Shown: piece after piece, positions 4,011 through 55,749 of the stretch
Layout of the letters: the number at the start of each line of letters is the position of its first letter
Position numbering within the stretch: position 1 is the stretch's first letter
DNA from: a virus
DNA length: 64,000 nt
Virus record (IMG/VR): IMGVR_UViG_3300024239_000161
Coordinates: 25,330-89,329 of that record
Reading direction: 5' to 3' (one strand)
Notes under the pieces: generated by a model
What the model was told of the DNA's origin: nothing
The model's input: the letters and a program-made list of their open reading frames with translations, nothing else
Databases searched by the model: none
Position numbers and translations under genes: made by a program

Positions 4011-4921
4011 TAGTATCCGACTCCTGTTGCTCCTTCTGTGCTGTTGTAATCTTCCGCGTAAATTGGAGTCAATTCTTGGAATTGTAAGGTCAACTGCATA
4101 TGAACGGGTGTGCCGTCAGAATAAGTTGCATAGGTATTAGAACCTGTAAAGTTTAATCCCAAATTTTGAAGGGCACATATTTTGTACTTATTTAGATATG
4201 GGTGGGGTTTTCCACCACTCATATATTGAATTTTAAAAACACTTGGGGCAGTTAAGAATAATCCTCCTGCAGCACCTGATGTAGTTCCTTTTCTTGGTGA
4301 CATTTCCTTTTTTAAGAAATATGCCAAATCTTTAATTACTCTTCCCTCATCAGCATCTCTTGGTGATAAATCAAATGCTAAAGAAAAAGGCTCTCTCAAG
4401 CTTACTCCTCTAAAAAGTAACTCAATATTTTCATTAATCACTGCTCCAGTATCTCTTGATAGAAGTTCTCCAAATAAGTTTGGATCGGTTCCAAGTAACT
4501 GCTCAACTGCTTTCGTTGCAAAAAAATCTTGAATTGCTTTTTGTCCCAATCCAGTCTGTGCCGAAGATGTTACTTTTTTAATAAAAGCAGATACTCCTTG
4601 ACCAAAACCTTGAAATGAATTTCCCGCTTTTATTGTTTCCTGTGCAACGCCTACCCCAGCAGCTATTATACCACTCATACCACCAGAACCCCATCCTGCA
4701 GATTGTGAATTGACTGGTAAAGATTGTGGAATTGGAAGAATAACACTACCTCGTATATCTTTTTGACCTATAGATTGATAATATGTATCTGAAGTTGGTA
4801 CTACAAAATTGGTAGAACTTAATTGCCCAACACCTGGAGGGCGATATTCATAAGCATCAATTTTCACATAGTCGGTATTATTTTCTAATCTTTTTTGTGG
4901 ATACCTGAATGTGGGTGCCAT
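4010..4921 (-). CDS. 48: gp48, baseplate tail-tube cap
   Basis: The 303-residue protein begins MAPTFRYPQKRLENNTDY and carries EPFSLAFDLSPRDADEGRVIKD followed by a C-terminal strand-rich tail-tube-like part (HPYLNKYKICALQNLGLNFTG, MQLTLQFQELTPIY). These are the landmarks I associate with T4-family gp48, which caps the baseplate hub and starts tube polymerisation with gp54. Its neighbours gp53 and gp4 and the divergent gp54-like gene support the call. The stop overlaps the gp53 start. Confidence 0.85.
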   Translation of the reverse strand: MAPTFRYPQKRLENNTDYVKIDAYEYRPPGVGQLSSTNFVVPTSDTYYQSIGQKDIRGSVILPIPQSLPVNSQSAGWGSGGMSGIIAAGVGVAQETIKAGNSFQGFGQGVSAFIKKVTSSAQTGLGQKAIQDFFATKAVEQLLGTDPNLFGELLSRDTGAVINENIELLFRGVSLREPFSLAFDLSPRDADEGRVIKDLAYFLKKEMSPRKGTTSGAAGGLFLTAPSVFKIQYMSGGKPHPYLNKYKICALQNLGLNFTGSNTYATYSDGTPVHMQLTLQFQELTPIYAEDYNSTEGATGVGY

Positions 4922-4936
4922 TTATTTTTTTTTGAA

Positions 4937-5311
4937 CTATTTAGTCCTGACATTGCCGAAAGATAATCTTTTTAAGTCTTCAATTTCGGATGGATAAATT
5001 TCATATAACTTACCCGCGATTTCATCCCAAGTATACTGTCTATCTTTCCCCCAATGATAATTTAATCCAGTAAATCCCCAGTTATAAACTTTTTTCACAT
5101 AGACAAAAGGATTTTGGTCATAATTTATGTTTGGAGTTTTTGCATTGTAAACAAAAACATAATACTTTCCTGCTACTGGAGGTAATGGAGATTCAGTCAA
5201 TACATTCATAATTTCAATCATTGTATCATCAGCATCTTCAGTACCAATAAACTTTTTTACAAGACCAGCAAGGCGACTTCTTTGTCTTTGTTGAAGAGTT
5301 TTTCTTGGCAT
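4937..5311 (-). CDS. Conserved-looking protein between gp4 and gp48, function unknown
   Basis: A 124-residue protein with a basic start (MPRKTLQQRQRSRL) and the segment GKYYVFVYNAKTPNINYDQNPFV, then YHWGKDRQYTWDEI and EIEDLKRLSFG. I recall similar proteins at this place in marine T4-like phages but know no function. It shares one base with gp4 and sits 15 bases from gp48, so it is probably translated with them late in infection. A virion or assembly role is an inference from position only. Confidence 0.7.
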   Translation of the reverse strand: MPRKTLQQRQRSRLAGLVKKFIGTEDADDTMIEIMNVLTESPLPPVAGKYYVFVYNAKTPNINYDQNPFVYVKKVYNWGFTGLNYHWGKDRQYTWDEIAGKLYEIYPSEIEDLKRLSFGNVRTK

Positions 5312-8193: not shown

Positions 8194-8297
8194 TGTTACT
8201 CTAATCTGGTGGTTATTGCTATTTATACAGGAAAAGCACCCAAAGGTGCTTTATCCCAACCTGAAAAGAACCACCAGATCAGGTATTCATATTTATC
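8194..8297 (-). promoter_or_regulatory. Late-switch cassette 2 (minus strand)
   Basis: Read on the minus strand: outer late box GATAAATA (8297-8290), left arm ATCTGGTGGTT (8279-8269), hairpin AAAGCACC/GGTGCTTT (8252-8233), inner late promoter TATAAATA (8227-8220), right arm AACCACCAGAT (8214-8204), then the gene start at 8193. The 11-base arms are exact complements. The sequence around the arms resembles cassette 5 (54.7 kb), including CTTTTCAGGTTGGGA, though the arms differ. Confidence 0.75.
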
Positions 8298-18826: not shown

Positions 18827-21800
18827 ATGCCTCTGAATAAGTTAAGCAACTTCATCAAAAATACTGATGGGCGCACGCTGTATGTAAATCCAAACGATTT
18901 AGACGCTACAGATTCGATTACTAATACTGGCAATTCCCTTGCACAACCTTTTAAAACGATTCAGAGAGCACTTTTAGAAGCAGCAAGATTCTCTTTTGTG
19001 AATGGGAAAGATAATGATTTAGTAGAAAAGACAACGATTCTTGTTTTTCCTGGTGAGCATTTAATCGACAACAGACCTGGATTTTCTATTTACGATAATA
19101 GCGACACTGCATATGCTGTTCCTCCAACTGGTGGTGTAGGAACTCCTGCACTTTCAACATTATCATTAGAATTAGATTCTAACTTTGATCTTACACAAGA
19201 TGATAATATTCTTTATAAGTTCAATAGTGTCAATGGTGGTGTTGTTGTACCTAGAGGCACCTCCATTGTCGGTCTTGACTTAAGAAAAACAAAAGTCAGA
19301 CCAAAGTATGTTCCTAATCCTACTGACCCATTAGTAGGAAAATCTGCAATATTCAGAGTTACTGGAGCGTGTTATTTCTGGCAGTTTTCATTCTTTGATG
19401 CTGATGAGTCTGGTCTTGTTTATACTCACCCATCATTTTTTACAAGTGGTTATCAATCAATTCCAAGATTCTCTCACCATAAACTAACTTGTTTTGAATA
19501 TGCTGATGGTGTCAACGAAGTTGGCACTTACGGTCTCACAGACCTTGATATGTATTATAGCAAACTTTCGAATGCATTTAACTCATATCGTCCAATTCCT
19601 GCAGATGCAAAGTTTCCTGCAAGTGATGAAGACTTTGCAAAAATGGATCCAGAGTGGCAGATTGTTGGAGCATTTGCTTCAGATCCGATTGATATACAGA
19701 CAGTTATTTCTGGAAACGGCACTACAGCAAGCACATTAGTTACAGTCACAACTACTGAAGATCATAACTTAAATGCTGGCACACCAATTAAAATTAGAGG
19801 TGTTGCTTCTCCAACTTATAATATTTCTACAAAAGTTCAAAATGTCTTAAGTGCAACACAATTTACATACTTACTTGAGTCTTTCCCAATTACTTTGGAT
19901 CCAACTCCAACAGCGACTGGAGCAACGGTAACTGTAGAGACTGACACCGTATCTGGAGCGTCTCCTTACATCTTCAACTGCTCATTAAGATCAGTATGGG
20001 GTATGAATGGAATGCACGCTGATGGTAGAAAGTCATCAGGTTTCCGCTCAATGGTTGTTGCACAGTTTACCGCTGTGTCCCTACAGAAAGATGATAGAGC
20101 ATTCGTAAAATATGACCCAACCTCAAGATCTTATAATGGTGTAAATTATACGACTGTTTACGGTGCAGATCTTCCTACAGGATCTTCACAAACAGATACA
20201 ACAAAAGTTTATCACTTAGATCCTGACGCAATTTACAGAAAAGATTGGGAATCAAGTCACATTAAAGTTTCTAATGATTCCTTTATTCAGGTAGTATCTG
20301 TATTCGCAATCGGATTTAATAAGCACTTTGATATTGAGTCTGGTGGTGATGCTTCAATTACAAACTCCAACTCAAACTTTGGTCAGATATCTCTTAACTC
20401 TGATGGATTTAAAGCAGAGGCATTTAACAAAGACGATAATGCCTTTATCACATCTATCATTGCTCCAAGAAATATTGATTCTACAACCGAAGAAGATATT
20501 GAATGGTTGTCGATTGATGTTGGATTAACGACTAATGTAACTTTTAATCCAACTGGAAATAAATTATACCTTTACGGATTAAATGCATCAGATAGTCTTC
20601 CTGTAAGTGTGACTCAGGGACATAGAATTGGTGCTCGTCATAACGATAAATTATATCTTTCGATCGATAACACTGAATATTCTGCAAACATTTACATGCA
20701 GGATGGTGTAACGAGTGCATATAAAGTTTATGATGTATCTAGTGTTTCTTCATCTATTCTTACTTTCACAAGTAATCATACTCTTAAAGATGGTGAAAAG
20801 ATCATCATCAATAGTGAAACTGGAGACCTACCAGAAAATGTAACTCCACATATAGTTGGATATGCAGTTACTTCTGGATTATCTGCAAATCAAATTAAGT
20901 TAGCAACTTCATTTACGAACGCTCTAAACAATGAAGCACTAACAATTTATGGTGGAGAGCAACTCAAGGTTTATAGTAGAGTCTCTGATAAATCTGCAGG
21001 AGACATTGGATCTCCAATTCAATTTGATACTGCTGCTGGTAACTGGTATATTACAGTCAATTCTGGAAATGATATCTATAATGAAATCGATACTCTTGGT
21101 GTTGCTGGTCTCAGTGAAACTACAGACTTAACTTATGTAAAGAGAATTATTGATGATAGAAGTTTAGACGAAAAAGTTTATAAGTTAAGAGTCGTTATTC
21201 CAAAAGAATTAACTGGTGCAAAAGATCCTGAAGATGGTTTTATTCTTCAAGAGTCTAGCACAACAGGTGCAAGAGCAGGAGACTTTACTCGTACAAGTAT
21301 TGCTAGCACTGACTTTGAATATGATAAAAATCCTAGATTCATTACAACTTGCACATTAGCATCCACAACAGTTACCGTATTAACTTCACTTCCTCACGGA
21401 TTGAATACGGGAGACTTGGTAGTTATTCGTAATGTGACTGACAGCAGTAATCCAAGTGGTCTGTATGATAGAGGATATAATGGTAAGTTTGCTGTAGCAT
21501 CAATTGTGAATGATATGTCATTCACATATTCAACAACCGATGTAAATGGAAGAGTTCATACACCAGGAGCATCAAGCACTAACGATATTAATTCAAGAAC
21601 GACAGCAGACCAAGTAAGAGATCTTCCTCGTTTTGAAAGAAACGATTGGAAATCAAATCTTTATGTTTATCGTAATGAAGTTATTTCTCCTTATGTTGAA
21701 GGAGCACAAGATGGAATTTACCACTTGTATGTTTTAAATGCAAGTAATGCGATTACAGAAGAGTTTACAAATCTTGAATATTCACAAAGTCCAGTAGATC

Positions 21801-36175: not shown

Positions 36176-36919
36176 ATGACTTCACAAAGTCCAAGAATAT
36201 ACTTGTATAAGATTACCTTTGAAGAAGTTTCTTATTACTATTATGGTGCTCATAAAGAAAAAAAGTTTAATGAATACTATATGGGAACTCCTGTAACCCA
36301 TAAGTGGATGTGGAAATTTTATACTCCTAAAAAGCAAATACTTCAATTTTTTGACTTCACAGATGAAGGTTGGATAGAAGCACAGGAAGTTGAAAAGAGA
36401 TTAATAAAACCATTTTATAACACCGATAAGTGGTGTCTTAATGAAAATGTTGGTGGTAAAGTTTTTATTGATTTGTGCTCAAAGGGTGGAAGAAAAGCAT
36501 ATGAACTTGGAATAGGAGGACACGCAAGGACTAAAGAACAAATGACCAAAGATGGGAAAAGTGGAGGAAAAAAAGCATACGAACTTGGATTGGGCATTCA
36601 TGGAAGAACTAAAGAACAAATGAGTGAAGATGCAAAAAATGGAGGACTAACCGCATATAAACTTGGTGTTGGAGTTCACGGAAGAACTAAAGAACAAATG
36701 AGTGAAGATGGTAAAAAAGCAACACAAAGAGCAAAAGAACTTCGTGTAGGTCTTTATGGACTGGCAACCGAAGAAAGAAGAGAAAATGTAAAAATTACCA
36801 ATTCACAAAGATGGGAATGTTGTATGACTGGTTATGTATCAACTTCTGCTGGAGTAGTTTCTTATCAAAAAGGAAAAGGAATAGATACATCTAAAAATAA
36901 TAGAAGACGCATATCATAA
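36176..36919 (+). CDS. GIY-YIG-like homing endonuclease with tandem repeats
   Basis: In this 247-residue protein, residues 1-90 look like a divergent GIY-YIG domain: IYLYKITFEEVSYYYYGAHK with E (WIEAQEVEKRL). About 98-200 holds four repeats of 22-25 residues built on GG-x-x-AYELG-x-G, HGRTKEQM and SED-x-K. They differ from NUMOD3 but probably also bind DNA modularly. The C-terminus is basic (KNNRRRIS). Late cassette 4 upstream supports a mobile endonuclease. The catalytic arginine of the domain is not certain by eye. Confidence 0.75.
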   Translation: MTSQSPRIYLYKITFEEVSYYYYGAHKEKKFNEYYMGTPVTHKWMWKFYTPKKQILQFFDFTDEGWIEAQEVEKRLIKPFYNTDKWCLNENVGGKVFIDLCSKGGRKAYELGIGGHARTKEQMTKDGKSGGKKAYELGLGIHGRTKEQMSEDAKNGGLTAYKLGVGVHGRTKEQMSEDGKKATQRAKELRVGLYGLATEERRENVKITNSQRWECCMTGYVSTSAGVVSYQKGKGIDTSKNNRRRIS

Positions 36920-43012: not shown

Positions 43013-43020
43013 TATAAATA
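43013..43020 (+). promoter_or_regulatory. Late promoter TATAAATA
   Basis: A perfect T4-type late box 20 bases before the internal-head-protein candidate, in a region otherwise full of early modules. Confidence 0.7.
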
Positions 43021-43040: not shown

Positions 43041-43535
43041 ATGAAAACTTTTAGAGAGTTTATATTGGAATGTGAGTTGGTTGAGGGTAAAGTAGAGTGG
43101 GACAATCCAAAGAGACCACTTCAATCTGGACTAACTCCAAGAGAAAAAAATAGGGCAGTTAGAAAAAGATTAGGTGTTGAAAATCCTGATAAACCATCAT
43201 TCTATAAAGGTGGTCCAAGTGAAAGAGATTATGAGAGATATGGAAAACTAAAAACAGCACACGACACGGAAAAAGATAAGAAAGTTCCTGACGAAAAAAG
43301 ACAGAAATTCAAATCAGTAGCAAAAGGTCGTCTTGGTGGTGAGCATAGTGCTGGTAGAATAAGAAGAATGGCTGGGGTCCATTCAGGAGCACAGAGAGGT
43401 AGAAATGCTGAAAAAGGAAAAGGTAGTTATGCTGTAATGTCTCAAACGCAGGGTGGAAAAGAAAGAAGAGAAAAAGATAAGAAAAGATATGGTGATTATG
43501 CTGACTTGAAGAGATTGAAAGAACCAAAAAAATAG
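43041..43535 (+). CDS. Candidate internal head protein with capsid-targeting sequence
   Basis: A 164-residue, strongly basic protein. Its first ten residues, MKTFREFILE, match the T4 capsid-targeting sequence MKTYQEFIAE of the internal proteins, which ends at a gp21 prohead protease site (I-x-E). Here cleavage would follow I-L-E at residue 10. The rest is K/R/G-rich with low-complexity runs (RLGGEHSAGRIRRMAGVHSG), fitting packaging with DNA and injection into the host. A perfect late promoter lies 20 bases upstream. Confidence 0.7.
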   Translation: MKTFREFILECELVEGKVEWDNPKRPLQSGLTPREKNRAVRKRLGVENPDKPSFYKGGPSERDYERYGKLKTAHDTEKDKKVPDEKRQKFKSVAKGRLGGEHSAGRIRRMAGVHSGAQRGRNAEKGKGSYAVMSQTQGGKERREKDKKRYGDYADLKRLKEPKK

Positions 43536-43573: not shown

Positions 43574-43630
43574 GACACTTCGCAAACAGGCACAAGGGCA
43601 CTTGAAACAGAGTGCTTTTTGTTGTATAAT
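43574..43630 (+). promoter_or_regulatory. Early promoter module 6 (terminator-promoter)
   Basis: GACACTT at 43574, AAACAGG, hairpin (43595-43618) with TTGAAA (43602-43607) in its loop, 17-base spacer, TATAAT (43625-43630). Motif to -10 is 51 bases. Confidence 0.7.
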
Positions 43631-54684: not shown

Positions 54685-54781
54685 ATAGCAATACCTGATG
54701 GACCGACATCTTTTCAGGTTGGGAGAGTAGTAATACTCTCCTTTTTAATGCTTATAAATACTATTGTCGGTCCATCAGGTA
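54681..54781 (+). promoter_or_regulatory. Late-switch cassette 5 (17-base arms)
   Basis: Outer box ATAAATAG (54681-54688), left arm TACCTGATGGACCGACA (54692-54708), hairpin GGAGAGTA-GTAA-TACTCTCC (54722-54741) plus TTTTT, inner promoter TATAAATA (54753-54760), right arm TGTCGGTCCATCAGGTA (54765-54781). The arms are 17 bases, fully complementary. The likely ribosome-binding AGG (54777-54779) lies inside the right arm, 8 bases before ATG 54787. Confidence 0.8.
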
Positions 54782-54786
54782 ATTGT

Positions 54787-55749
54787 ATGATTATCTACAA
54801 AACTACTAATCTTATCAACGGAAAGTTTTATGTTGGTCAAGATAGTAATAATAATCCAGAGTATTATGGTTCTGGAACTGCTTTCAAATTAGCACTTAAA
54901 AAATACGGTAAAGAAAACTTCTTAAAGGAAGCATTAGAAGTTTGCTTTACACAAAACCAGTTAAATGAAAGAGAAAAATATTGGATAAAAGAAACCAAAG
55001 CAATTGAACTTGGTTATAATTTAGCAGAAGGTGGTTTTGGTGTATCTAATATGTCTGATGAAATTAAACAAAAAATAAGTAAATCTAAAAAAGGTAAAAA
55101 ACTTTCTGAAGAGACCAGAAAGAAAATGAGTAAATCTTTTAAGGGAAGAAAACATACAGAGGAAACTAAACAAAAATTAAGTGAGATTAACAAAGGTAGA
55201 AAATTAACACCAGAGCAGTTGAAAAAAATGTCTGAAAGTCATAAGGGCAAAAAATTATCAGAAGAAACTAAAAGAAAAATTGGAGATAAAACCAGAGGTA
55301 GGAAACTTTCTGAAGAACATATAAAAAGATTGAAGGAATTTCATACTGGTAAAAAACTTTCTGAAGAAACTAAAAAGTTGATTGGTCAAAGAGGAAGAGG
55401 TAGAAAAATTTCCGAAAGTCATAAGCAAGCATTGTTAAATGCTATAAAAGGAAATCAATGGAATAAAGGTAGAAAACATACAGAGGAAGCAAAGAAAAAA
55501 ATAGGAGAAGCAAGTAAAAATAGAACTCATAATGAAGAAACTAAAAAGAAACTGAGTCAAATACAAACAAATCAAAAGAAAGTTTGTATGATAAACCCAG
55601 AGACTAAAGAAGTGATAAAGATTTTCAGTTCAATATATTATGCTGGTAAAGAAACGGGAATAAATAGAACAAATATCACTACTTGCTTAACTGGAAAAAC
55701 AAATAGAAAAAAAGCAGGTGGATATGAATGGAAATTCTATGAGGAATAG
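54787..55749 (+). CDS. GIY-YIG homing endonuclease with about nine NUMOD3 units
   Basis: A 320-residue protein from ATG 54787 (an upstream ATG at 54748 lies before the inner late promoter). Residues 1-85 are a GIY-YIG domain: MIIYKTTNLINGKFYVGQD, YYGSGTAFKLALKKYG, NEREKYWIKE. Then come about nine NUMOD3 repeats (GKKLSEETRKKMSKS, GRKHTEETKQKLSEI and others) and an IENR1-like end (IFSSIYYAGKETGINRTNIT). It lies between two copies of one gene's 5' end. Confidence 0.92.
   Translation: MIIYKTTNLINGKFYVGQDSNNNPEYYGSGTAFKLALKKYGKENFLKEALEVCFTQNQLNEREKYWIKETKAIELGYNLAEGGFGVSNMSDEIKQKISKSKKGKKLSEETRKKMSKSFKGRKHTEETKQKLSEINKGRKLTPEQLKKMSESHKGKKLSEETKRKIGDKTRGRKLSEEHIKRLKEFHTGKKLSEETKKLIGQRGRGRKISESHKQALLNAIKGNQWNKGRKHTEEAKKKIGEASKNRTHNEETKKKLSQIQTNQKKVCMINPETKEVIKIFSSIYYAGKETGINRTNITTCLTGKTNRKKAGGYEWKFYEE

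Follow-up and report, generated by a model that had tools for sequence, protein, structure and literature searches.

Internal head proteins of T-even phages are recognised by their leader (PMC12373910, PMC3012670, PMC9026906). Phage T4 Ip1, Ip2 and Ip3 are injected inhibitors that have only the leader in common and that act on different GmrSD enzymes of Type IV restriction (PMC12373910). In the T4 targeting peptide, residues 4 and 7 serve targeting and residues 8 and 10 permit processing; Asp at position 10 blocks processing but not targeting, and IPIII mutants assemble heads more slowly (PMC9026906). T4 IPII and IPIII begin MKTYQEFIAE, IPI begins MKTFKEF, and the ipII and ipIII genes are positioned between e and denV. 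Leader-based recognition is thus established for T-even phages, and within our incomplete literature coverage we found no papers that apply it to cyanophages.

The window analysed here is a 64-kb stretch of DNA out of an 89-kb virus record and contains T4-type baseplate genes. One tail gene is 72% identical to that of Synechococcus phage S-SRM01, which identifies the source as a T4-like cyanophage relative. Neither gp21 nor gp23 was found in the 89-kb record, itself a fragment; a gp21 protease is encoded on the same contig as one relative of the protein described below (L011). We consider it likely that one gene of the window encodes a late T4-type internal head protein that is packaged through an N-terminal tag, trimmed after E10 and/or E15 and injected. 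Its features are as follows.

43013..43020, plus strand: late promoter TATAAATA, an exact T4-type match 20 nt 5' of the ATG
43041..43535, plus strand: coding sequence of the predicted tagged internal protein, 164 aa, pI 10.1, an open frame with an ATG start
43041..43070, plus strand: capsid-targeting sequence MKTFREFILE, residues 1-10, resembling the T4 IPI, IPII and IPIII starts, with predicted protease site ILE/C at its end
43071..43085, plus strand: CELVE, residues 11-15, with second predicted protease site LVE/G; Glu15 conserved
43086..43181, plus strand: conserved mature-protein core, GKVEWDNPKRPLQSGLTPREKNR..., residues 16-47, the most conserved stretch in alignment A1
43233..43265, plus strand: second conserved motif ERYGKLKTAHD, residues 65-75; E65-L70 invariant in A1
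43515..43529, plus strand: C-terminal motif LKEPK (residues 159-163), in which L159 and E161 do not vary across A1
43594..43619, plus strand: terminator-like hairpin 3' of the gene, with a 10-pair stem (3 G-C) and then a T-rich tail; consensus match only
43602..43630, plus strand: sigma-70-like promoter of the next, early-type gene, TTGAAA-17-TATAAT, 11/12; consensus match only

The window protein starts MKTFREFILE/CELVE/GKVEWDNPKRPLQSG, where slashes mark predicted cuts. Both the aromatic residue 4 and F7 of the T4-type targeting sequence are present in its first 10 residues, and its leader holds two [IL]xE sites of the gp21 type, ILE/C at residues 8-10 and LVE/G at 13-15. A preliminary description of this DNA had recognised a T4-type targeting peptide, a perfect late promoter 20 bases upstream and a highly basic protein, and all three hold: MKTFREFILE aligns with the IPII and IPIII start, TATAAATA lies at 43013-43020, and the protein has a net charge of +20, 27% K+R and a pI of 10.1. 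After the predicted cleavage it would be a small, basic protein of 17 kDa with pI 10.1-10.3 (T4 internal proteins, 9.0-9.7). Pfam, PHROGs and the PDB contain no match to it, and none was found among 50,697 GenBank phage records, T4 included, at E 0.01; the same search gave no homology of the mature domain to IPI, IPII or IPIII. The AlphaFold2 model has a mean pLDDT of 56, no confident fold, and was for that reason not used as a fold-search query.

The window protein and the T4 internal proteins thus share an MKT(F/Y)xEF N-terminus, an [IL]xE site for cleavage among residues 1-19, a small basic cargo and a gene placed among early genes. They differ in that the mature part of the window protein is without similarity to its T4 counterparts, that its leader has two predicted sites, E10 and E15, that TATAAATA lies 20 nt upstream whereas the 60 nt preceding T4 ipII and ipIII showed none, and that the host is a cyanobacterium. 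As a positive control, the motif finds ipI, ipII and ipIII in T4, together with the uncharacterised gene 61.1 (T4 18966-19130; L219, L277). Its 54-aa product starts MKTFKEFIKED, a good tag match, and is a candidate for an additional internal protein of T4.

The gene had been described as hidden among early genes. Its placement agrees with this, but it is not odd; the location is typical because T4 ipII and ipIII also sit among early genes. That the neighbours carry early modules is plausible from the 11/12 promoter of the next gene, but weak, as the region holds 29 promoter-like sites against 26 +/- 4.6 in shuffles, which is no excess. An Rfam search of 40-47 kb of the window gave no match. 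Elsewhere in the window, at 2048, 36141, 54754, 59183 and 61916 on the plus strand and at 8226 on the minus strand, TATAAATA or ATAAATA lies ~25-28 nt before ORFs. Some of these ORFs are homing endonucleases, with phrog_314 matched at 36176-36919 and 54748-55749, and the late promoter seems to travel with these mobile genes. Other proteins of the same genome with the same start, which the preliminary description had proposed looking for, did not turn up: the window ORF is the sole tag-pattern match in the window, and scanning the window plus the 25 kb before it with a relaxed pattern gave a single extra match, an ORF that resembles homing endonucleases and has no true tag.

Relatives of the window domain are encoded at 17 loci in viral contigs (IMG/VR), or 22 with a profile search. 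No relative was found in bacterial genome contigs, and a bacterial origin of the domain is rejected on that ground. Nearly all relatives keep the tag while the remainder diverges; one (L015) has the domain without it. Variants include MKTF(R/Q)(E/D)FI(L/A/S/T)E, MKTYQEF(I/V)(S/E)E, MKTFRDFITE, MKTFSQFVQD and, from a TTG start, MKTYFQFIEE. Strongest conservation in alignment A1 begins directly after E15 and extends through GKVEWDNPKRPLQSGLTPREKNR; outside this core, ERYGKLK and LKEPK, the proteins vary in sequence and length. ATAAATA is conserved ~18-26 nt upstream in L004, L008-L013 and L255, which are stand-alone relatives. The block of promoter and leader (TATAAATACCTAAAAAGTATCA...) is conserved among stand-alone relatives, and flanking genes differ between several neighbourhoods, a pattern in which promoter, tag and cargo act together as one unit. 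Relatives occupy varied accessory locations outside the head operon.

Cleavage had been expected to leave a new N-terminus at Cys11. The cut site for this, ILE/C, is present, but Gly16 is more likely. Glu15 is kept in every aligned relative that reaches this position, where the second site reads LVE, LIE or LSE before G, LLE before K, or VKE in larger fusions; stand-alone relatives have LxE/G. One relative (L256) has Asp at position 10 and yet retains LIE/G. Because Glu15 is conserved and the Asp10 relative still keeps this second site, we predict G16 as the main mature N-terminus and C11 as the alternative.

Four larger IMG/VR relatives (L002, L014, L016 and L017) also place the window's domain behind a T4-like tag. 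They differ from the window protein in an additional C-terminal domain and, in L002, L014 and L016, in an extra CWPGYKK module. Since the same domain is fused there to another C-terminal domain, it may be a packaging or partner-binding module common to several proteins and not the effector itself. Two candidate identities of the added domain were not accepted: an acetyltransferase (best Foldseek E 0.33, with several acetyltransferases among the weak matches) and Ntox28 (E 0.032, below cut-off), each a hint only. A structural protein of isolates S-P4, S-SSM4 and P-RSM4 (T4 GC0119) has nothing but the CWPGYKK module in common with the larger relatives. Two further tagged sequences lie beside the fusion gene of L017, at 4298-4984 and 7752 onward: an ORF that has an HNH-like motif, HHITP...HHKNL, and no Pfam match, and a paralog of the window family that has diverged (EGKVPWNDSKYPLQSGHTP).

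The tag is widespread beyond this family. Across viral contigs, 77 stretches have TATAAATA followed by the tag within 10-30 bases, against 0 when a permuted tag of equal degeneracy was used in the same scan. Judged from these sequences, the tag resemblance is not a product of chance, because of this difference and because tag and promoter are conserved in relatives. A scan with residues 8-10 left free gave at least 120 matches. Among the matches listed, pooling and dereplication yielded 136 complete proteins in 58 cargo groups without detectable mutual similarity, and tagged cargos had a median pI of 10.3, compared with 6.3 for the remaining ORFs of their contigs. The pooled site statistic is biased by the strict search pattern, and a 41-protein subset, not selected for residues 8-10 and with one protein per cargo group, was used instead. 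Among the matches listed, this subset had [ILM]xE at residues 8-20 in 26/41 and at residues 31-43 in 1/41, and residue 10 was most often Glu (25/41). Over six phage records the tag pattern gave 13 matches, and the reversed pattern 1. S-SRM01 has eight tag matches; the tight pattern gave none in the marine isolates S-P4, S-SSM4 and P-RSM4. Two tandem paralogs (L019 4832-6675; S-SRM01 82315-84158) start MKTFQEFQES or MKTFQQFQES, with the targeting residues but no [IL]xE at residues 8-10, and are perhaps packaged but uncleaved at that site. Three consecutive tagged genes form a cargo-gene cluster in another contig (L237 1501-2896), one with weak similarity to GNAT acetyltransferases. Enzyme guesses for other tagged cargos, mostly N-terminal fragments, fell below Pfam cut-offs and were set aside, except for the S-adenosylmethionine (SAM) lyase described below.

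Published mass spectrometry has detected other tagged cyanophage proteins in virions. For S-CREM2 virions 52 proteins are listed (PMC10665884), and all five S-CREM2 ORFs that match a relaxed tag are in the virion list (reversed motif, 0): ORF6, a SAM hydrolase (MKDFDSFLEE); ORF13 (MKDLHSFLTE); ORF14, an APH-like kinase (VKRFDAFLTE); ORF136 (MQTFSMFFSE); and ORF154, a cytidylyltransferase (MKNFSSFLTE). The motif was relaxed after inspection of the N-termini, so that the Fisher p = 6.5e-4 is indicative only. The S-CREM2 tag is more degenerate than that of the window protein (F4, F7, L/F8, E10). In S-SCSM1 the tag pattern matches two ORFs, of which one was detected: ORF91, an NMNAT reported in virions, starts MKSFLQFLKEA behind ATAAATA, and ORF30 is tagged and not marked as a virion protein. 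The five S-CREM2 proteins and ORF91 resemble the window protein in having a tag-like N-terminus and mostly a late promoter, and they are virion-detected; they differ in that several are recognisable enzymes. The authors of both studies suggested carriage in virions, and contamination could not be excluded (PMC10665884 for S-CREM2). S-CREM2 ORF12, a virion-detected Cas9-like protein (L262 7704-10313, minus strand), has a tag-like LRFASFMAEAA at residues ~17-27, and its annotated start may be too early.

One tagged cargo group belongs to the SAM lyase family: 9/9 members match PF23780 (best E 7e-21). These nine proteins, tagged and behind a late promoter (L082, L099, L119, L122, L127, L164, L165, L168 and L177), are candidate packaged anti-restriction enzymes. 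By eye, S-CREM2 ORF6 has the group's motif SSLSRL...KGG...RGDKS.KEN. Because T4 Ip1-3 inhibit restriction enzymes and one tagged group consists of SAM lyases, early counter-defence appears the likeliest class of function, a reading that reaches the window protein by analogy.

From the tag, cleavage sites, promoter, basic cargo and conservation read in the DNA, we infer how the window protein may be packaged, cleaved and injected and what it may do. The gene would be transcribed from its own late promoter and the protein would enter the prohead core through its N-terminal capsid-targeting sequence. A gp21-type prohead protease would trim it after E10 and/or E15, most likely leaving the G16 N-terminus. 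The mature protein, basic and loosely folded, would remain among the packaged DNA and be ejected into the host together with the genome. In the first minutes it would most likely act against defence or for host takeover, like T4 Ip1-3. The late internal head protein of the preliminary description is supported by the conserved tag, the permuted control, the T4 positive control and the cyanophage virion proteomes, and the window protein is probably a virion component.

The main rival to counter-defence is a DNA-associated or assembly role, in which the protein is packaged through its tag and passively ejected as a basic filler, a DNA-condensing or a core-assembly protein and has no effector role. 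The very basic, poorly structured protein would suit such a role, as would the slower head assembly of T4 IPIII mutants (PMC9026906) and the fusion of the domain to other domains, by which it may be an accessory module. Against this, the strongly conserved core GKVEWDNPKRPLQSGLTPREKNR suggests a specific partner and not mere charge, and T4 Ip1, Ip2 and Ip3 all inhibit restriction enzymes (PMC12373910); we regard this role as rather unlikely. It is more doubtful still that the protein belongs to the prohead as a structural element or scaffold, to be degraded in maturation and not retained in the virion. Cleavage of T4 core proteins occurs at sites like those of the window protein (PMC9026906), which has two of them in its first 15 residues plus LKE/P near its C-terminus; however, its internal cleavage sites are few, the T4 core proteins gp67, gp68, gp21 and gp22 start without the tag, and relatives of the window protein lie at varied accessory sites and not in a head operon. 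An ordinary late or early cytoplasmic protein whose tag resemblance is fortuitous is highly improbable. Homing endonucleases in the same window also lie behind TATAAATA, so that the promoter alone does not imply packaging, but the permuted control and the conservation of the tag among diverged relatives contradict a chance resemblance.

The preferred reading of the window gene as a tagged, injected internal protein adds to a class that is already known, and the wider tag census is a more interesting result than this gene alone. It seems reasonably probable, if somewhat less so than for the window gene itself, that among T4-like viruses infecting cyanobacteria or other bacteria of aquatic habitats the tag is a general address label for dozens of unrelated late cargos injected as a first strike. 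SAM lyases and NMNAT-like enzymes would be among these cargos, together with new families, of which the window protein's is one. If true, this would explain why non-structural enzymes, so far possible contaminants, recur in cyanophage virions, and the tag offers a testable reason for the SAM hydrolase, kinase and NMNAT-like proteins found there. If the tag works likewise in aquatic T4-like viruses, sequence would reveal the proteins that are injected before phage gene expression, and a ready list of counter-defence candidates would become available for hosts whose defences are poorly known.
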